Positions 48,062 to 57,362 of a DNA stretch of 64,000 nucleotides are shown here, one piece after another (position 1 is the first letter of the stretch; each line of letters begins with the position of its first letter). The notes beneath the pieces are model-generated. The model was not told the DNA's origin. It saw nothing but the letters and a program-made list of their open reading frames with translations, and ran no database searches. A program made the position numbers and the translations under genes. This DNA comes from Pseudohongiella acticola (GTDB lineage: Bacteria; Pseudomonadota; Gammaproteobacteria; Pseudomonadales; Pseudohongiellaceae). The stretch is from positions 2,046,001-2,110,000 of the forward strand of contig NZ_MASR01000001.1 in NCBI RefSeq assembly GCF_001758195.1. The letters run 5' to 3'.

Positions 48062-50152
48062 ATGACAGCTCCGGCGGCGCTCAGCGACATACCGGTAACG
48101 CAACTCAAGGGGGTCGCCGCACGGCTGGCCGAACGGCTCGCCACCCTGCATATTCACACCGTACAGGACCTGTTGTTTCACCTGCCCTCGCGCTATCAGG
48201 ATCGCACCCGAATTGCCGCCATCGGTAGAGTCCGGCTCGGTGACGACGTCATGCTGGAGGCCGACATCCTGAGTTGCGAGCTGGATTTTGGCCGACGCCG
48301 CAGCCTGGTGTGCAAGATAAAGGATGCCAGTGGCATCATCAGCCTGCGGTTTTTCCACTTCAGCGCGGCTCAGAAAAAAATGCTGGCGCCGGGCAATCGC
48401 TTGCGCTGTTACGGTGAAATCCGCAGCGGTAAAAACGGATATGAGATCTACCACCCTGAATACCAGGTACTTCGGCCCGACGAAATGTCGCCGGTTGCTG
48501 ACCGGCTGACACCGATATACCCAGCCACCGATGGCCTGCAACAAACCCGTTTGCGTAAACTTATCGATCAGGCATTGGCGTATCTGCAGTTGCCGGCATC
48601 CCTGCCGGACTGGATCCCGGCTGAGACCCTGCACCAATTTGCCTACCCCAGCCTGGCCGACGCGCTTGAGTACCTGCACCACCCGCCGGTGCAGGCTCCG
48701 GTGGCGCAACTTCTCGCCGGCGAGCATCCGGCGCAACAGCGCCTGGCCTTTGAAGAACTGCTCAGTCATCGCCTGTGCCTGCGCCGTCTGCGCCAGCAAT
48801 CGGCGCAACTGCTGGCACCCGTCATGCGTGCGCAGAATAAGCTGAGCCAGGCTTTCCTCAAACAACTCCCGTTTACTCTGACCCAGGCCCAGGCGCGCGT
48901 CTGTGGTGAAATCAGCCAGGACCTGACGCTTGATCAACCCATGCTGCGGCTGCTGCAGGGGGATGTGGGTTCGGGCAAAACCGTGGTGGCAGCCCTGGCC
49001 GCGCTGCAGGCCGTGGACAGTGGCTACCAGGCGGTCATCATGGCGCCCACTGAAATTCTGGCGGAGCAGCATCTGGCCAATTTCACACAATGGCTGGCGC
49101 CGCTGGGTCTGCAACCGGGCTGGCTCAGCGGAAAGGTCAAGGGCCGCCAGCGCCAGCAAACGCTGCAGGCCCTGCAAGACGGCAGCAGCAGAATTGCCGT
49201 GGGCACTCATGCTCTGTTTCAGGATGGCGTGGAATTTAACAGACTGGGCCTGATCATTATTGATGAGCAGCACCGGTTTGGCGTTCATCAGCGCCTGGCA
49301 CTGCGCGAAAAGGGCAATAACGGTGAGGGCATTCCGCATCAACTGGTAATGACGGCAACACCGATTCCGCGCACGCTGGCCATGAGCGCCTATGCCGATC
49401 TGGACTGCAGTGTGCTCGATGAATTGCCTCCGGGCCGGACGCCCGTCAATACCGTGATTATCTCCAATGAACGCCGCGATAACGTTATCGAGCGTATTCA
49501 TCAGGCCTGCCTGCAAGGCAATCAGGCCTACTGGGTGTGCACCCTGATTGAGGAATCCGAGAGTCTGCAATGTCAGGCGGCAGAAGCAACGCTGGCCGCA
49601 TTGCAGGCGCAGTTGCCGGATCTGGCCATTGGTCTGGTGCACGGCCGCATGAAAGCCACCGAGAAAAGTGCAGTGATGTCCGCATTCAAACAGGGAGGCC
49701 TGCATTTGCTCGTGGCCACCACGGTCATCGAAGTTGGCGTTGACGTGCCCAATGCCAGCCTGATGATTATCGAGAACCCCGAGCGACTGGGGCTGGCACA
49801 ATTGCATCAACTGCGCGGCCGGGTTGGCAGAGGCGCCAAGGCCAGCCATTGCCTGCTGTTGTACCAGACACCGCTGTCACAGATTGGCAAGCAGCGTCTG
49901 GGTATCATGCGTGACAGCAATGATGGCTTCTACATTGCCGAGCAGGATCTGGCCATTCGCGGGCCCGGGCAGGTACTGGGAACCCGACAGACTGGCTTAA
50001 TGAGTTTCCGGATTGCCGATTTGGTGCGTGACGCTGCCTTGCTTGATCCGGTAAAATCCACGGCAGATAAATTTGAACAAGAATATTCTTCACATATCGA
50101 CCCGCTGGTAAACCGCTGGCTCGGCGACCGGGAACTATACGGCAATGTCTGA
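48062..50152 (+). CDS. recG: ATP-dependent DNA helicase RecG
   Basis: 696 residues from ATG 48062; TTG 48047 would add five residues and overlap ridA. RecG reverses stalled forks and processes recombination and R-loop intermediates. An N-terminal wedge domain with OB fold (DLLFHLPSRYQDRT, then LRFFHFS) precedes helicase motifs I (GDVGSGKTVVA), II (IIDEQHRFG), III (VMTATPIPRTLA) and VI (HQLRGRVGRG). The C-terminal FEQEYS motif region is present near the end. The stop overlaps the HDOD gene start by 8 bases. Confidence 0.97.
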   Translation: MTAPAALSDIPVTQLKGVAARLAERLATLHIHTVQDLLFHLPSRYQDRTRIAAIGRVRLGDDVMLEADILSCELDFGRRRSLVCKIKDASGIISLRFFHFSAAQKKMLAPGNRLRCYGEIRSGKNGYEIYHPEYQVLRPDEMSPVADRLTPIYPATDGLQQTRLRKLIDQALAYLQLPASLPDWIPAETLHQFAYPSLADALEYLHHPPVQAPVAQLLAGEHPAQQRLAFEELLSHRLCLRRLRQQSAQLLAPVMRAQNKLSQAFLKQLPFTLTQAQARVCGEISQDLTLDQPMLRLLQGDVGSGKTVVAALAALQAVDSGYQAVIMAPTEILAEQHLANFTQWLAPLGLQPGWLSGKVKGRQRQQTLQALQDGSSRIAVGTHALFQDGVEFNRLGLIIIDEQHRFGVHQRLALREKGNNGEGIPHQLVMTATPIPRTLAMSAYADLDCSVLDELPPGRTPVNTVIISNERRDNVIERIHQACLQGNQAYWVCTLIEESESLQCQAAEATLAALQAQLPDLAIGLVHGRMKATEKSAVMSAFKQGGLHLLVATTVIEVGVDVPNASLMIIENPERLGLAQLHQLRGRVGRGAKASHCLLLYQTPLSQIGKQRLGIMRDSNDGFYIAEQDLAIRGPGQVLGTRQTGLMSFRIADLVRDAALLDPVKSTADKFEQEYSSHIDPLVNRWLGDRELYGNV

Positions 50153-51428
50153 TTACAAACCTGCAATCCGCTGCGTACTGCTAAAAGACAACCGCACACT
50201 GGTGCAATGTATTTTACCTTTCAGTTCGCTGCTGGACCTTCGTACACTGCAAAGTGTCACTGACCGCGGGTTTGTACCCCTGTCTCAGGAAGACATCGTC
50301 AGCGCCAGTCGCAACCGACACCTGCAACCCCTCGAAGGCTGCCGCGATGTTTTTACCCTGCCCACGTTAATCGATAGCAGCCTGAGTGCCGAAGACGCAC
50401 TGGTTGTAAATGAAAGCGGCATGACACTGTCGGCGCTGCGCGCCACGTTACACGAACGCGAAATCAATATCCGCCATATTGCCTTTACGCTGAACGCTTC
50501 AAAATTAAAGCACGACCTGCCTGAGGCAGGGAGCGACACCCAGCAGATCAGTGATTCCATCCAGAACTTTACTTCTCTGCGAATTCGCCAGCGTCTGGAC
50601 GAAACACTGGAGATTCCGCCTCTGTCGGCTACCGCTGACCGCATCATGGCGCTGCGCGCCAACCCCAATGCAACGGTGTCCGAATTGACCAGCATTGTGG
50701 AAGCCGACCCCAGCCTGGCAGCCCAGGTGGTCAGCTGGGCGTCGTCACCCTACTACGCCGCACCGGGCAAAATCCGCTCGGTGCAGGATGCCATCATCCG
50801 TGTACTGGGCTTTGATCTGGTCAGTAATCTGGCCATCGGACTGATACTGGGCAAAACCGTGGAAGTTCCCAAAGACCAGAGTGCCGGGTTCACACCTTAC
50901 TGGTTGCAGGCAGTGTATTGCTCCACTGCCGTGGAAGCGATGGCCCGCATGGTGCCCGGTAACAAACGCCCCCGGCAGGGTATGATTTATCTGTCCGGGC
51001 TGCTGCATAATTTCGGTTTTCTGGTATTGGCACATACGTTTCCTGAACATTTTTCCACGATCTGCCGCTACACCGAAGCCAACCCCGAAATCAGTCACGT
51101 CGCCATCGAAAAACACCTGATCGGCATCAGCCGCGAGCAGATTAGCGCCTGGCTGATGCAATCCTGGACCATGCCGGAAGAAGTGTCTGTTGCGCTGCGT
51201 TACCAGCAGGACGGTACTTACAATGGCCCGCATGCGATTTATGCAAATCTGATTTTTATTGCCATGCGCCTGTTCCGCGCGCATGGTATCGGCGACGCTC
51301 CGCCCGAGCCGGTGAGCGATGCCATGTTCGAACGTTGTGGACTGGACCGTGTGCGCTGCGAGGAGCTTATCGCAAAACTGGTGCTGTCAGCGGATATCGC
51401 GCTGATTGCTGATCAGATGTCGATCTGA
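50145..51428 (+). CDS. YbaK-like / HDOD domain signalling protein
   Basis: 427 residues. Residues ~1-125 look like a YbaK/ProX-type aminoacyl-tRNA deacylase domain (for example LVQCILPFSSLLDL, then EDALVVNESGMTLSALRA), probably degenerate since the catalytic lysine is not evident. Residues ~165-360 are an HDOD domain (IPPLSATADRIMAL, then VEADPSLAAQVVSWASSPYY), a non-catalytic HD-related output module used in signalling and motility. The 8-base overlap with recG implies co-translation, but the functional link is unclear. Downstream ubiA starts 19 bases later. Confidence 0.82.
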   Translation: MSDYKPAIRCVLLKDNRTLVQCILPFSSLLDLRTLQSVTDRGFVPLSQEDIVSASRNRHLQPLEGCRDVFTLPTLIDSSLSAEDALVVNESGMTLSALRATLHEREINIRHIAFTLNASKLKHDLPEAGSDTQQISDSIQNFTSLRIRQRLDETLEIPPLSATADRIMALRANPNATVSELTSIVEADPSLAAQVVSWASSPYYAAPGKIRSVQDAIIRVLGFDLVSNLAIGLILGKTVEVPKDQSAGFTPYWLQAVYCSTAVEAMARMVPGNKRPRQGMIYLSGLLHNFGFLVLAHTFPEHFSTICRYTEANPEISHVAIEKHLIGISREQISAWLMQSWTMPEEVSVALRYQQDGTYNGPHAIYANLIFIAMRLFRAHGIGDAPPEPVSDAMFERCGLDRVRCEELIAKLVLSADIALIADQMSI

Positions 51429-51447
51429 TCGGAACCCGGGAGTACGC

Positions 51448-52353
51448 ATGCGACCGACCGCTTTTATGAATGATCATTTGAAAAAATATTTGCCTCGGGT
51501 CCACGCGCGTTTACCAGCCTTCATCCTGTTGACCCGCCTGAACAGACCCATTGGCACCCTGCTGCTGTTATGGCCAACACTGGGCGCACTGTGGCTGGCA
51601 GCCAATGGCTGGCCATCCTGGCAACTGCTGATCATTTTTGCACTGGGCACCTTGTTGATGCGCTCTGCTGGTTGTTGCATCAATGACTTTGCCGACAGCC
51701 ATATTGACGGCGATGTCCTGCGCACCGAGAATCGTGCCATTGTGACTGGCCAGGTCACCCGCACTGAGGCGATGCTGTGTTTTGTGGGACTTTGTCTGGC
51801 CGCCTTGGTGCTGTTGTTGTTCACCAATACACTGACCATTGCCATATCACTGGGCGCCGTTGCGCTCACCGCAATCTACCCGTTCATGAAGCGCTACACC
51901 CACCTGCCACAGCTGGTGCTGGGCATGGCGTTTTCCTGGGGTATCCTGATGGCGTTCACGGCACAGACCGGCACCTGGCCGCCCACTACTGCTTGGGTGC
52001 TGTATGTCGCCAACTGTTTGTGGACGGTCGCTTATGATACTCAGTACGCCATGGTTGATCGCGAGTACGACCTGAAGATTGGCGTAAAATCGACCGCCAT
52101 TCTGTTTGGTGATGCCGATGTCGTCATGATTGGTGCGCTGCAGGCGATGTTCCTGTTCGCGCTGTTTCTGGCCGGCGGGCAGTTTCAGTTAAGTGCGGTT
52201 TATTACCTCGGCCTGATCGTCGCTGCCGGACTTTTTGTTTATCAGCACTGGCTGATCCGGAACCGAGAAACCGACGGCTGCTTCAAGGCCTTTCTTAATA
52301 ATCACTGGGCGGGGTTGGCGATATTTGTCGGGGTTGTACTGGGCGTTCAGTAA
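51448..52353 (+). CDS. ubiA: 4-hydroxybenzoate polyprenyltransferase
   Basis: 301 residues from ATG 51448; earlier in-frame codons overlap the HDOD gene. Seven to nine hydrophobic helices carry the two Asp-rich motifs: NDFADSHIDGDVLRT near 88 and DREYDLKIGVKSTAILFG near 211. UbiA prenylates 4-hydroxybenzoate, committing it to ubiquinone in the inner membrane. The ubiC chorismate lyase gene that often precedes it is not present. It is convergent with the esterase lipoprotein gene, 9 bases apart. Confidence 0.95.
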   Translation: MRPTAFMNDHLKKYLPRVHARLPAFILLTRLNRPIGTLLLLWPTLGALWLAANGWPSWQLLIIFALGTLLMRSAGCCINDFADSHIDGDVLRTENRAIVTGQVTRTEAMLCFVGLCLAALVLLLFTNTLTIAISLGAVALTAIYPFMKRYTHLPQLVLGMAFSWGILMAFTAQTGTWPPTTAWVLYVANCLWTVAYDTQYAMVDREYDLKIGVKSTAILFGDADVVMIGALQAMFLFALFLAGGQFQLSAVYYLGLIVAAGLFVYQHWLIRNRETDGCFKAFLNNHWAGLAIFVGVVLGVQ

Positions 52354-52362
52354 TACCCAGTA

Positions 52363-53226
52363 TTACTGCCCGTCCATTTGCAGATGCCGGTACAGGAACT
52401 GTGTGCCCTCGCGCACTGCGCTGCCACGAAATATAAAACTGGTGTAGTGCCCCCGCAAATGCTGAAGATAGAGCTCTGTTGTGATATCGAAGGACTGCAG
52501 GGCGTCGTTAAAATCGGTGGCGTGATGGGTCGGTACCAGTTTGTCCCAGGTGCCGTGAAAAATAAAAAAAGGCGGCGCATCGGCGTGCACATGCACGACC
52601 GGTGAGGCCAGGGCGTAGGCATCCGGCATTTCTGCCTGTGTGCCACCGATAAAAGACTCGACCAGCAACCCTTCCTGCCATTTCCGCAGGTCCGTGGGTG
52701 TGGCGCCTGCCACAACCGCAGCCGGCCGGGTGCGCACACCGCCATATTCTTCATCCAGCTCCCCGCCCTGACCTGCCACCAGCGCCATCAGGCTGAGCAA
52801 ATGCGCGCCTGCAGAGAATCCAAAAGCACCTATGCGATCCGGATCAATCGCCAGACGTTCGGCATTGTCGTGGATCCAGTGCATGGCCTGTTGGACATCG
52901 TGCAGTTGCGCCGGAAATCGATACTCAGGCGCAAAACGATGCTCTATGTTTACGACCACGAATCCGTGTTCGGCCAGGTATTTAGCAGTACCGTCAATCG
53001 ACTCGGGAGAGAAGCTGCGCCAGCCGCCACCATGCGACAACAAAACTGCTGCATGGGGTCCATCACCGTTGGGCTGAAACACAGTGGCGTGCAAGGCTTC
53101 AGGCCAGTCCGGCGGAGTAAAACGTTGTGCATCCATGACCCGATAACCTGAGGTCGGCATATCTACATCGTTACCGGGATCACCCCGGTGCGTGGAACAG
53201 GAGAGCAACAGCCAGTTTGTCAGCAT
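52363..53226 (-). CDS. alpha/beta hydrolase (esterase/lipase-like) lipoprotein
   Basis: 287 residues. The short N-terminus MLTNWLLLSCS looks like a minimal lipoprotein signal with Cys10 in lipobox LLSC; it lacks basic residues, so lipidation is uncertain. The hydrolase domain has oxyanion motif HGGGW, nucleophile elbow GFSAGAH, an aspartate in FHGTWDKLVP and a histidine in RGHYTS near the end, the order of hormone-sensitive-lipase-type esterases. Substrate unknown. No clear ribosome site precedes the ATG. It is downstream of the bacteriocin-like pair on the same strand, separated by 205 bases. Confidence 0.85.
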   Translation of the reverse strand: MLTNWLLLSCSTHRGDPGNDVDMPTSGYRVMDAQRFTPPDWPEALHATVFQPNGDGPHAAVLLSHGGGWRSFSPESIDGTAKYLAEHGFVVVNIEHRFAPEYRFPAQLHDVQQAMHWIHDNAERLAIDPDRIGAFGFSAGAHLLSLMALVAGQGGELDEEYGGVRTRPAAVVAGATPTDLRKWQEGLLVESFIGGTQAEMPDAYALASPVVHVHADAPPFFIFHGTWDKLVPTHHATDFNDALQSFDITTELYLQHLRGHYTSFIFRGSAVREGTQFLYRHLQMDGQ

Positions 53227-53431
53227 AAAAGTAAAGAGTCTGATAATGATCTGCCTATTAATGAAACTTCTTTATACAACCTTTAATAAGACCTCCTCGC
53301 AAAGGAAATTTGTCCGCACATCGTGTTTATTTTGATGCAAGTCTCCGGCGGGCGAGATTTGACGCTCCCTATGCTCTTCTCTATAACCACCGAGCGGGGT
53401 TGGCAACGTCTGCCGGGGTTGCGCCTTGAGT

Positions 53432-53647
53432 CTAATGTCGGGACTGATTGATTGCGCTCGCGCTGAGCCGCCGACACAGTAAATGATTGTAAATTATCCC
53501 AACGACCGCTGCCAGGCCAGCGGCAGCCTGCAAAAAATCTGGCAACTGGCCGCTCCAGACAACAAGCCAGAATACGACCAGACTGACGCTGATGGACAGA
53601 TGCTCCTTTATGCTCTTGTCAGCATGGTCCTTAACCGGCTCTGGCAT
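53432..53647 (-). CDS. small two-helix membrane protein, candidate immunity protein
   Basis: 71 residues. TAGGAG lies 8 bases before the ATG, a strong signal for a real gene. A charged N-terminus (EPVKDHADKSIKEH) is followed by two hydrophobic stretches, about 19-33 (ISVSLVVFWLVVW) and 38-55 (FLQAAAGLAAVVGIIY), joined by a short loop, and a basic C-terminus. No family recognised. It lies 29 bases after the double-glycine-leader gene on the same strand. Size, topology and position match immunity proteins of class II microcins such as that of microcin V, but this is inference from context. Confidence 0.65.
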   Translation of the reverse strand: MPEPVKDHADKSIKEHLSISVSLVVFWLVVWSGQLPDFLQAAAGLAAVVGIIYNHLLCRRLSASAINQSRH

Positions 53648-53676
53648 GGGTGCGCTCCTATTTCGACTACGTTGTT

Positions 53677-53946
53677 TCAGCTAACCTGATGGCATCCGAA
53701 TTCGTCAATGTAAACATCATTCGCACCACCACCGCCGCCACTTCCTCCGCTCTCACTACCGCCACTGTTGTCATAGCACTCTTGGGCACCGTATGCGGAA
53801 AGTGCCCAGCCTCCAATCGCCAGACCCCAGCCAATCGGACCACTTGCTACTGTCAATGAGGCGGACGCAACGACATAGCTTGCTACTTCGGCACCGCAAC
53901 CCCCGCCGCTTACCAAACAGACTTCTTCATGATTCAATACTCTCAT
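53677..53946 (-). CDS. double-glycine-leader peptide, candidate class II microcin/bacteriocin precursor
   Basis: 89 residues, preceded by AAGGA at 8 bases. The N-terminus MRVLNHEEVCLVSGG matches the leader consensus of peptides exported by C39-peptidase ABC transporters: a conserved hydrophobic/acidic pattern ending in Gly14-Gly15. Cleavage there leaves a 74-residue core with a hydrophobic, GxxxG-rich segment (about 22-53, including GPIGWGLAIGGWALSAYG), Cys17, Cys57 and Cys85, and a Gly/Ser-rich tail at 61-75. This is the pattern of class II microcins. No exporter gene lies nearby, so secretion would rely on one elsewhere. I do not recognise a named family. Confidence 0.65.
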   Translation of the reverse strand: MRVLNHEEVCLVSGGGCGAEVASYVVASASLTVASGPIGWGLAIGGWALSAYGAQECYDNSGGSESGGSGGGGGANDVYIDEFGCHQVS

Positions 53947-54195
53947 GGTGCATTTCCTTATACAGTTCTAGTTAAAATCCCTATGTTTCGGGTCTCAATT
54001 TCGCAAGGCCTTCATTTTATTTGTAGTATTCAATTTCGGAGAATTCCAGTTTATTTTGCCTTCATCGCAGTAACCAGGCGGTGTTGTCTGTGGCTGGTCT
54101 TTGCACAATTGCTCTGGCCCACCGAACGCGCGATAATCGGCGCAACGTCATTGTGACGACCACTATTTTCCACTTTAATCCTGGATTGACTTACT

Positions 54196-56073
54196 ATGAA
54201 CAAAATACTGTTCGCATTATCATTTTTATTCACGCTGGCGGCCTGCGGCGAATCCGCAACGCCACCAGCCGCCCCCGACATGAGTGCCGCGGAAACGCCT
54301 GCTGCGGAAGAGACCCAAACCGAAACCGAGCGCCTTAACGCCTGGTTTGACGAGAAATACGAAGAGCAGCTGAATTTTAGCCCCATTGGCATGACTTTCC
54401 AGGGCATCAAGGATCGCTACGGCGAAATTGACGACATGTCCGTTGAAGCCGAGAACGCCCAAGTGGAATGGATGCGTCAAAGCGTCGAGGAAATGCAGCG
54501 CGAATTTGACTACGATGCCCTGACACAGGAAGCGCAGACATCATGGGATATCTGGACCTATCAGTACGAACAGGCCGCCCGTGCCGCAGAGTTTCAGTAC
54601 AACGGTCTGGTATTTGAACAGATGAATGGCGCGCAGGGCTTTCTGCCCACGTTCCTGATCAGCTTCCACAACGTGGCAGATGTGTCGGATTACGAAGCGT
54701 TTGTTTCCCGTCTGTCGGAATCAGGACGGGCACTGGATCAGCTGATTGAGCGCGCTGAAGAATCCGCCGAACGCGGCGTGATCACGCCCGGCTTTGCCCT
54801 GGAAAAGGTCATCGACCAATCCCAGAATGTGATTACCGGTGCACCGTTTACTGACGGCGACGACTCCGCCATCTGGGCGGCGGCCAAGACCAATCTGGCG
54901 ACCCTGGTAGATGCCGGCCAGCTGGAGCAACCGGATGCGGATGCCCTGCTCGAGCGCACCGAGACAGCACTGACCCAGGATTTTGGTCCAGCGTTTGAGC
55001 GCGTCGTTGCCTGGGCCGAGTCGGAAATGGACAAGGTACCGGACGTATCAACCGGCCTGGTGTCTCAGCCCAATGGCGAGGCTTATTACGAGTTCCGCCT
55101 AGCCAACCAGACCACCACTGACCTGACCGCTGACGAGATCCATGAAATCGGCCTTGCCGACGTGGCACGGTTGCGCGGCGAGATGGAAGCGGTCAAGGAC
55201 AGCACCGGCTTTGACGGCACCTTGCAGGAGTTTTTTGTCATGCTGCGCGAAACCCGCGATGACGAACGCTTCTATTACCCCAACAATGATGAAGGTCGTC
55301 AGGCCTATATCGATGATGCCACGGCAGCCATCGAGAACATCAAAGCGCAGCTGCCCAACTACTTTGCCACCCTGCCGCAGGCTGACCTGGTGGTACGTCG
55401 CGTGGAAGCCTTCCGTGAACAGGATGGCGCCCCACAGCATTATTACCCCGGCACGCCCGATGGCTCACGTCCTGGCGTGTACTACGCGCATTTGTCTGAC
55501 ATGAATGCCATGCCCAAATCGGAGATGGAAGTGATTGCCTATCACGAAGGTCTGCCTGGCCACCACATGCAGATTTCCATCGCGCAGGAACTGGAAGACA
55601 TGCCACGCTTCCGCACTCAGGCCGGCTTTACCGCCTACTCAGAAGGCTGGGGTCTGTATTCCGAGCGTCTGGCCAGCGAGATGCCGGACACCTATGAAGA
55701 TCCCTACTCGCAGTTTGGTCGTCTGACCTCGGAGATGTGGCGTGCCATCCGTCTGGTGGTTGATACCGGCCTGCATTCCAAAGGCTGGACCGAGCAGGAA
55801 GCTATCGATTATTTCGCGGCAAACTCTTCTGTGCCGTTGGCGGCCATCACCACCGAAGTGCAGCGCTACATCGTGATGCCGGCGCAGGCTACCTCGTACA
55901 AGATCGGCATGATCAAGATCCTGGAGCTGCGCGAAACTGCGCGTGAAGCACTGGGCGACGATTTTGATATCCGCGAGTTCCACGACACCATCCTGCTGGG
56001 TGGCGCCATGCCGCTGCATTTGCTGGAACGTCGGGTGAACCAGTGGATTGACGAGGTACAGGCGCGCTCCTGA
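54196..56073 (+). CDS. DUF885 family peptidase-like lipoprotein
   Basis: 625 residues. The signal peptide ends at lipobox LAAC (Cys17), followed by a Thr/Ala/Glu-rich linker. The DUF885 domain carries VIAYHEGLPGHHMQI, an HExxxHH-type zinc-binding motif, with EGWGLYSERLASEM downstream supplying the likely third ligand. Such proteins are thought to be zinc carboxypeptidase-like enzymes, but few have been tested. The ATG has only a weak upstream ribosome site. The mature protein would be anchored to an envelope membrane. Confidence 0.92.
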   Translation: MNKILFALSFLFTLAACGESATPPAAPDMSAAETPAAEETQTETERLNAWFDEKYEEQLNFSPIGMTFQGIKDRYGEIDDMSVEAENAQVEWMRQSVEEMQREFDYDALTQEAQTSWDIWTYQYEQAARAAEFQYNGLVFEQMNGAQGFLPTFLISFHNVADVSDYEAFVSRLSESGRALDQLIERAEESAERGVITPGFALEKVIDQSQNVITGAPFTDGDDSAIWAAAKTNLATLVDAGQLEQPDADALLERTETALTQDFGPAFERVVAWAESEMDKVPDVSTGLVSQPNGEAYYEFRLANQTTTDLTADEIHEIGLADVARLRGEMEAVKDSTGFDGTLQEFFVMLRETRDDERFYYPNNDEGRQAYIDDATAAIENIKAQLPNYFATLPQADLVVRRVEAFREQDGAPQHYYPGTPDGSRPGVYYAHLSDMNAMPKSEMEVIAYHEGLPGHHMQISIAQELEDMPRFRTQAGFTAYSEGWGLYSERLASEMPDTYEDPYSQFGRLTSEMWRAIRLVVDTGLHSKGWTEQEAIDYFAANSSVPLAAITTEVQRYIVMPAQATSYKIGMIKILELRETAREALGDDFDIREFHDTILLGGAMPLHLLERRVNQWIDEVQARS

Positions 56074-56473
56074 CGCCTGCCAACCCATACTCAGGCTACA
56101 GTGTGCCAGGCCCGATTTATTCGGTGCCTGGCTCCTGCAACGCTAAAAAGCCCCGCCACACGCCGGGATCCACTTCCGGAAACCTGCCCAAACCCTCCCC
56201 GTTTTATTCTCAACTCTCCTGATAGGCCTGTCTACAGGGCATACAGCCTGCCTCGCCCCGTGTTTGTGCGCGCCATAAAAGTGCGCACCATTACAGTGCA
56301 CCCCTAGTGGCCAAAGCACGCAGAATGTCCGTCAAAGCGCGTATATCACGGGCTTTCACAACATTGGCCCGCTCTTTGCAAAACACTCCAGCAAGAAAGT
56401 CGTTACTTTCGAAAATGAAAAAATAACGCAAAACAGCTTACTACTAAGCATAGATCTATCCTGGAGAAAACAT
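56074..56473. other. 400-base gene-free stretch
   Basis: No convincing coding region. A stem-loop at 56105-56132 (GCCAGGC pairing with GCCTGGC, with inner CCG/CGG) may end or process the DUF885 transcript; it lacks a T run. The last ~110 bases become AT-rich and presumably contain the promoter of the outer-membrane protein gene. CTGGAGAA lies just before its ATG. Confidence 0.6.
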
Positions 56474-57124
56474 ATGAAACGATTGACCCAACTCGTAGCA
56501 GGCCTGACACTGGTATCAGGTGCCGTAGTTGCTTCCACAAGCGCATCAGCAGACGTGTCTTACAACATCGGTTATGCCTCTGAGTACTACTTCCGTGGTG
56601 TTCTGCAGAAGAACTCTTCTGCCAGCGCCGGTATCGACTTCGAATCAGAAGGTTTCTACGCGGGCAGCTGGGCAGCTGACGTGGGTGACGGCCTGGAAGT
56701 AGATGGTTATTTCGGTTACGGCATTGAAACTGACTCTGGCCTGACTGCCAGCATCGGTTACACCGGCTACTTCTACACCGGCGAGTTTGATGACACTTAC
56801 CAGGAAGTCAACTTTGGTCTGGGTTATGGCATGTTCAGCCTGGGCTACTCCGTTGGTGAGTGGGACGGTTTCGGTGCATCGCAGGATTACGACTTCCTGG
56901 ACCTGACCATCACGGGTGAATCAGGTCTGTATGGCACAGTCGGTTTCTGGGGTGACGAGTTTGACGGCGAGTACCTGGAAGTAGGTTATGGTTTCAGCTT
57001 TGCCGACTTCGATATGGGCATCGCGGGCATCATCAACAGCGAAGAGCTGTCTGACGAAGTAGGCTCTAATGGCAGCCCAAGCACAGGCGAAGCCATTGTC
57101 TTCACCATCGGCAAATCCTGGTAA
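56474..57124 (+). CDS. outer-membrane beta-barrel protein, TorF/TIGR02001 type
   Basis: 216 residues. The signal peptide ends at SASADV (about residue 27). The mature protein is rich in Gly, Tyr, Asp and aromatic residues with alternating strands (NIGYASEYYFRGVLQ, VDGYFGYGIETDSGLTASIG, VNFGLGYGMFSLGYSVGEWD) and ends in a C-terminal Trp after GKS, typical of barrel proteins recognised by BAM. The NIGYASEYYFRG start is the family signature. Probably a small porin; substrate unknown. A strong terminator follows and the gene looks monocistronic and well translated. Confidence 0.88.
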   Translation: MKRLTQLVAGLTLVSGAVVASTSASADVSYNIGYASEYYFRGVLQKNSSASAGIDFESEGFYAGSWAADVGDGLEVDGYFGYGIETDSGLTASIGYTGYFYTGEFDDTYQEVNFGLGYGMFSLGYSVGEWDGFGASQDYDFLDLTITGESGLYGTVGFWGDEFDGEYLEVGYGFSFADFDMGIAGIINSEELSDEVGSNGSPSTGEAIVFTIGKSW

Positions 57125-57172
57125 GACCGGGCAGCTGCTGGTACCTGCAGACCCACATCTGCAGTGATACAG

Positions 57173-57197
57173 AAAGGCTCCTTCGGGAGCCTTTTTT
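57173..57197 (+). terminator. strong Rho-independent terminator
   Basis: AAAGGCTCC (57173-57181) and GGAGCCTTT (57186-57194) form a perfect nine-pair stem capped by the stable loop TTCG, followed by more T residues. It ends the outer-membrane protein transcript. Confidence 0.95.
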
Positions 57198-57362
57198 GTG
57201 CCCGCCACTTTCTGCGTTCACCCTTTGCTTCCACCTCTTGCTGAACCCGATACTTGATTTTTGACTGATATCGGCGTAATTAACCTGTATGCATCGCCAG
57301 TTTTGAGTATCCACGGCGAGATACCAGGACGAATATCAGGAAAGAATCCAGGAGAGATGGAT

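Follow-up and report, generated by a model that had tools for sequence, protein, structure and literature searches.

A class II microcin-like gene pair in Pseudohongiella acticola, its putative C39 exporter and a genus-wide set of double-glycine precursors

Class II microcins are described as systems of five parts, namely a precursor, an immunity protein, a C39 transporter, a membrane fusion protein and TolC, in which the precursor is cleaved at a GG or GA motif and the immunity protein has 51-216 aa with membrane helices (PMC10233263). According to another account, the validated members are few and come mostly from Escherichia coli (PMC9746304). Here, we analysed a window of 64,000 nt (the whole stretch under study) from Pseudohongiella acticola and found that two small genes in it are probably a class II microcin-like toxin and immunity cassette, exported by the C39 system of the same genome. 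On the sequence features that we tested, the pair would belong to class II, with its activity predicted. The first-pass annotation had proposed a class II microcin with an immunity partner, and this reading is now supported as a prediction by a C39 and HlyD-type exporter in the genome, by the lack of a match to an unrelated family, and by the recurrence of the layout in related genomes.

Both genes lie on the minus strand, start with ATG and are separated by 29 nt. The upstream ORF (53677..53946, minus strand) encodes an 89-aa double-glycine precursor and is preceded by the ribosome-binding site AAGGA (53955..53959, minus strand), and the downstream ORF (53432..53647, minus strand) encodes a 71-aa protein and is preceded by AGGAG (53655..53659, minus strand), which confirms the ORFs, spacing and ribosome sites reported at first. 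The leader, which had been said to end in Gly-Gly, does so; it comprises 15 residues, MRVLNHEEVCLVSGG (53902..53946, minus strand), and thus falls within the 15-18 aa of the N-terminal double-glycine signal of class II. The predicted C39 cleavage site is after Gly15, which would leave a 74-aa core (53680..53901, minus strand). The two membrane helices claimed for the 71-aa protein correspond to two hydrophobic segments in a Kyte-Doolittle script, and its size lies within the 51-216 aa of adjacent small membrane immunity candidates. An AlphaFold model of the precursor alone was uninformative (mean pLDDT 38.8). In the mechanism that we propose, the double-glycine leader would be recognised by the C39 ABC transporter, the precursor would be cleaved after Gly15, and the core would pass out through this transporter, with the HlyD-type protein encoded beside it and a channel of the TolC type; once outside, the core may attack competing cells at their inner membrane and kill them, and the 71-aa membrane protein would protect the producer.

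By translation, the core begins with a hydrophobic Gly-rich part, continues into a Gly/Ser-rich linker, contains three Cys and ends in Ser. The three Cys and the Gly/Ser-rich stretch therefore stand as first annotated, but the stretch had been called a C-terminal tail, and it is internal, the C terminus being DEFGCHQVS. This position bears on the idea that the peptide is a class IIb siderophore-microcin, with a siderophore on the Gly/Ser-rich region. A C-terminal region of this kind is typical of class IIb (PMC10233263), and the core does have a Gly/Ser-rich stretch and a terminal Ser; however, the stretch is not C-terminal, and in a Pfam scan of the exporter locus none of the eight genes there suggested siderophore attachment, which makes a siderophore-microcin very improbable.

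The leader is above chance as judged by a profile comparison. Residues M1, L4, E8, G14 and G15 are common to all nine aligned leaders (that of the window and eight others), a conservation that is partly by construction because the rows were picked by motif. An HMM of the eight other leaders, with that of the window left out, gave the window leader 16.8 bits (E 5e-4) and ranked it first among 1735 six-frame segments of the window, whereas the best of 40 Markov-1 shuffled windows reached 10.6 bits; this chance test is not fully independent, since the eight leaders had been collected by a motif designed with the window leader in view. A DNA leader pattern gave eight matches versus one for a control pattern, and the window and L023/L026 matches were accepted as leaders. 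In the profile check that had been suggested for the leader, our own HMM thus matched it, and the TIGR01847 leader model matched neither this leader nor any other segment of the genome. In Pfam and NCBIfam, neither window protein scored above any curated cut-off, so the clear match to an unrelated family that might have spoken against a microcin did not appear. The precursor reached 15 bits (E 0.025) with Bacteriocin_IIc (PF10439), below the 27.1-bit cut-off, and is not assigned to that family. A holin identity for the 71-aa protein was considered and rejected, as Phage_holin_3_3 matched at sub-threshold level only (E 0.026).

The missing exporter was the main weakness of the first-pass annotation, which suggested that it may lie elsewhere on the chromosome, and there both the C39 transporter and its membrane fusion partner were found. 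In the genome (3.61 Mb, 8 contigs), only one C39 match reaches E <= 1e-10, that of a complete 705-aa ABC transporter with C39, membrane and ATPase domains (G000:C1:434952-437066; C39 E 5.7e-35), which shares a contig with the pair but, at a distance of about 1.66 Mb, is unlinked to it. Its gene is overlapped by an HlyD-family gene (HlyD_3, E 5.2e-15), and a TolC-type protein is encoded elsewhere in the genome (TIGR01844, 297.7 bits, cut-off 225.15), so that the C39 transporter, membrane fusion protein and TolC of class II systems all have counterparts here; this exporter would be the one that handles the precursor. The transporter was aligned over residues 15-702 with PCAT1 (4ry2, E 3e-82) and over 32-702 with ComA (8hf4, E 1e-70). 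In the alignment, the presumed catalytic Cys, His and Asp of its C39 domain are identical to the PCAT1 residues that we take to be the corresponding triad. The Cys/His/Asp triad as such was taken from CvaB (PMC9746304). A second, weak C39 match in the genome (L002:1501-1878; C2:336061) lies in a 327-aa frame and scored 26.9 bits against a family cut-off of 22.

Near relatives of the exporter among named records include those of Pseudohongiella sp., at 78% and 64% identity. One C39 exporter per genome was found in 13 of the 15 genus genomes at E <= 1e-10. At this threshold, the other two (G002 and G012) have no C39 match despite their leader peptides, and either the exporter was lost or there is an assembly gap. 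The exporter matches in L056 (G013) and L059 (G007) each contain one in-frame TAG, which may mark a true interruption, stem from a sequencing error or come from a match overrunning the gene end.

The pair occupies a variable site between ubiA and a DUF885 gene (window 51406-56073). When window 50001-57200 was compared with syntenic loci by blastn, the pair fell within an 897-nt segment (53231..54127) between hydrolase and DUF885 genes, where the closest relative, G011, has 135 unaligned nt; the DUF885 protein of G011 is 97% identical to that of the window. Judged by this alignment, about 760 bp have been inserted with the pair. In G013, G003 and G008, ubiA adjoins DUF885 and the hydrolase is absent there, and in G009 and G007 the site has other neighbours. 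Neither window gene was found by tblastn in the six syntenic loci, and neither had a match in the genomes of the 55 other relatives. The precursor had no match in genome contigs or viral contigs, in scans that detect close relatives only, and neither it nor the 71-aa protein had a match in plasmids. By these searches, the pair is strain-specific, as is expected of toxin and immunity cassettes. As a single genome carries it, the pair offers no comparative sign of selection. The expectation that the same pair would occur in related genomes was thus borne out only for the architecture, which recurs through the genus and twice more in the same genome, and not for the exact genes. Presence in a single genome would also fit a silent or decayed cassette, a real sequence that is unexpressed, but both ORFs are open and preceded by ribosome sites, and the genome encodes a complete exporter; we consider such a cassette quite unlikely.

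The recurrence of the architecture was followed with a profile of nine leaders, which was run over 56 genomes (our own and 55 relatives) and gave 100 matches up to E 10, with 67 at E <= 0.6. Among these 67, G016:C15 was left out and L105 and L115 lacked a start codon, so that 64 remained; three of the 33 weaker matches (L141, L142 and L143) were kept by eye, making 67 readable precursors in all. Across the 15 genus genomes, the number of precursors per genome ranges from one to six. Our own genome has three, that of the window, L026:8026-8217 and L141:733-951. The second forms a pair with a membrane protein (L026:8296-8595; C1:2780026), and relatives of this precursor occur in six further genomes of the genus; the downstream membrane ORF of this family is related in 7/7 genomes, at 31-53% identity to that of L026. 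The third (C1:1404232) is precursor-like, a weak match (E 1.07) whose leader ends in VSAA, with AA for GG; the ORF downstream of it (L141:1044-1550) encodes 168 aa and contains membrane segments, and the precursor-like ORF has a relative in G003 (L137).

As a downstream partner we counted an ORF of 45-200 aa with a membrane segment and a start no more than 130 nt downstream, and the control genes had at least 150 aa (n=284). With any start codon, a partner follows 53/67 precursors versus 30/284 control genes; with ATG only, the counts are 48/67 versus 24/284, and with a ribosome site required they are 30/67 versus 19/284. If precursors are barred from counting as partners, any start codon being allowed, a partner was found for 51/67 precursors overall (49/64 without the three kept by eye) and for 41/49 within the genus, which leaves 16 of the 67 without a small non-precursor membrane ORF downstream. 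This recurrence also bears on the function of the peptide. In Synechococcus, small proteins of the double-glycine type have a role in forming biofilms (PMC4997328), and the exported peptide could accordingly be a signal or biofilm factor and not a toxin; however, a toxin with its immunity protein agrees better with a small membrane ORF that recurs and with an insertion specific to the strain, and we regard the signalling role as unlikely.

The exporter genes belong to a tight operon (L005:9949-18374) with the order fatty acyl-AMP ligase (FAAL), acyl carrier protein (ACP), Lip_A_acyltrans-type protein (LpxL/PatA fold), HlyD and C39 transporter, in which neighbouring genes overlap at three junctions (52, 17 and 49 nt, judged from the listed start codons) and are separated by a 4-nt gap at the remaining one. 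Our literature searches turned up no exporter operon that combines these acyl genes. An AurF-like gene, which is divergent, and a 2OG-Fe(II) oxygenase gene lie beside the operon in L005. Orthologous exporters at >= 62% identity defined 14 related loci (L028-L041), and tblastn found all five operon genes in ten of them (L028-L034, L036, L039 and L041); in L038 the carrier protein gene had no tblastn match, and L035 and L040 start inside the operon block. In L037 (798-3940), the ligase is directly before HlyD and the carrier protein and acyltransferase are absent. In a more distant group of 11 loci (L042-L052), of which several are short, tblastn found HlyD in eight and an acyl gene in none. Precursors with the same kind of leader directly follow the transporter gene in five of the 14 related loci (L029, L035, L036, L039 and L040), and the leader motif revealed none at this place in the other nine, L037 included. 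The place after the transporter is taken by a GNAT gene in the closest loci (L028, L030 and L041) and in our own genome. In L039 (12175-12508) and L036 (12202-12535), two tandem precursors follow the exporter and are themselves followed by one membrane ORF, an arrangement that we liken to two-peptide bacteriocins.

The operon raises the possibility that the ligase, the carrier protein and the LpxL/PatA-fold enzyme transfer a fatty acyl chain to the precursor before export, perhaps at its C-terminal Ser. Precursors end in Ser in 37/45 cases in genomes with the acyltransferase, in 3/21 cases in genomes without it and in the single case (1/1) that could not be assayed, and 32/289 control genes do so. 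Without the three weak matches kept by eye, the contrast is 35/43 versus 3/20. Counted by strict family, the figures are 17/21 for families with such a member and 2/14 for the others, and 15/19 is fairer than 17/21 because two pairs of homologous families were split in the strict count. The Ser pattern is a lead, since relatedness among the sequences and genomes makes the counts interdependent and the counting was done only after the pattern had drawn attention. A comparison restricted to the genus shows a weak contrast (36/42 versus 2/6), and six genus precursors in acyltransferase-bearing genomes have other ends (FDN twice, VVKW, DNW, YAD and TFL). The class with the enzyme includes G020 on a distant match (29%) on a contig other than that of its exporters; the class without it includes G004, the genome of L037, where the ligase is retained and the lone extracted precursor does not end in Ser.

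A model of the L028 acyltransferase, 51% identical to the enzyme of our own genome, was built from 11 sequences (mean pLDDT 79.4) and matches PatA (E 1e-9) and LpxM (E 7e-7), so that a relative of our enzyme is predicted to have a PatA/LpxM-like fold. However, the usual acceptors of LpxL/PatA-fold enzymes are glycolipids, and HX4D/E, the usual motif of acyltransferases of this fold, is replaced by HMGDF, which is invariant among the aligned sequences. Taken as a whole, the association of Ser ends with the acyltransferase suggests peptide acylation, and acylation of the window precursor is a tentative reading that we find rather doubtful at present. As acylation would be a refinement of the class II microcin reading, its probability overlaps with that of our main explanation. 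We speculate, with equal reserve, that one exporter operon may acylate many dispersed Pseudohongiella precursors and that their convergent C-terminal Ser may be the site or a recognition signal.

This marine genus thus carries many precursors at dispersed sites, that of the window among them, and most are followed by a small membrane ORF. The link between an exporter and acyl-activating enzymes leads to a testable question, namely whether some Gram-negative microcins are lipidated. If so, lipidation would serve to bring them to, or into, target membranes, and lipidated microcins would form a class parallel to the siderophore-bearing class IIb.

Among described systems, PCAT1 and ComA align with the exporter over nearly its full length, and unlike them it has an HlyD-type partner in its operon. 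Microcin V with CvaAB-TolC (PMC10233263) resembles the pair in its double-glycine leader of 15-18 residues, small core and adjacent small membrane protein, and in an export route made of a C39 ABC exporter, a membrane fusion protein and TolC; in contrast to microcin V, the window pair has an unlinked exporter, in an operon with acyl-activating enzymes, its precursor and partner have no curated family match above the cut-off, and its host is Pseudohongiella. Mcc17978 of Acinetobacter baumannii is likewise a microcin system outside Enterobacterales, one whose activity is experimental, and its proposed immunity protein is cupin-like whereas ours is a candidate small membrane protein (PMC10333792). 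In the class II microcins of Serratia marcescens, as reported in PMC13101503, several precursors also occur per genome, some at separate sites, and one example has an AMP-binding gene and a toxin-activating lysine-acyltransferase among its possible modification genes. The Serratia enzyme is a lysine-acyltransferase, whereas that of Pseudohongiella has the LpxL/PatA fold and is encoded within the exporter operon; thus, dispersed microcins and possible acyl genes have a precedent in these Serratia examples.
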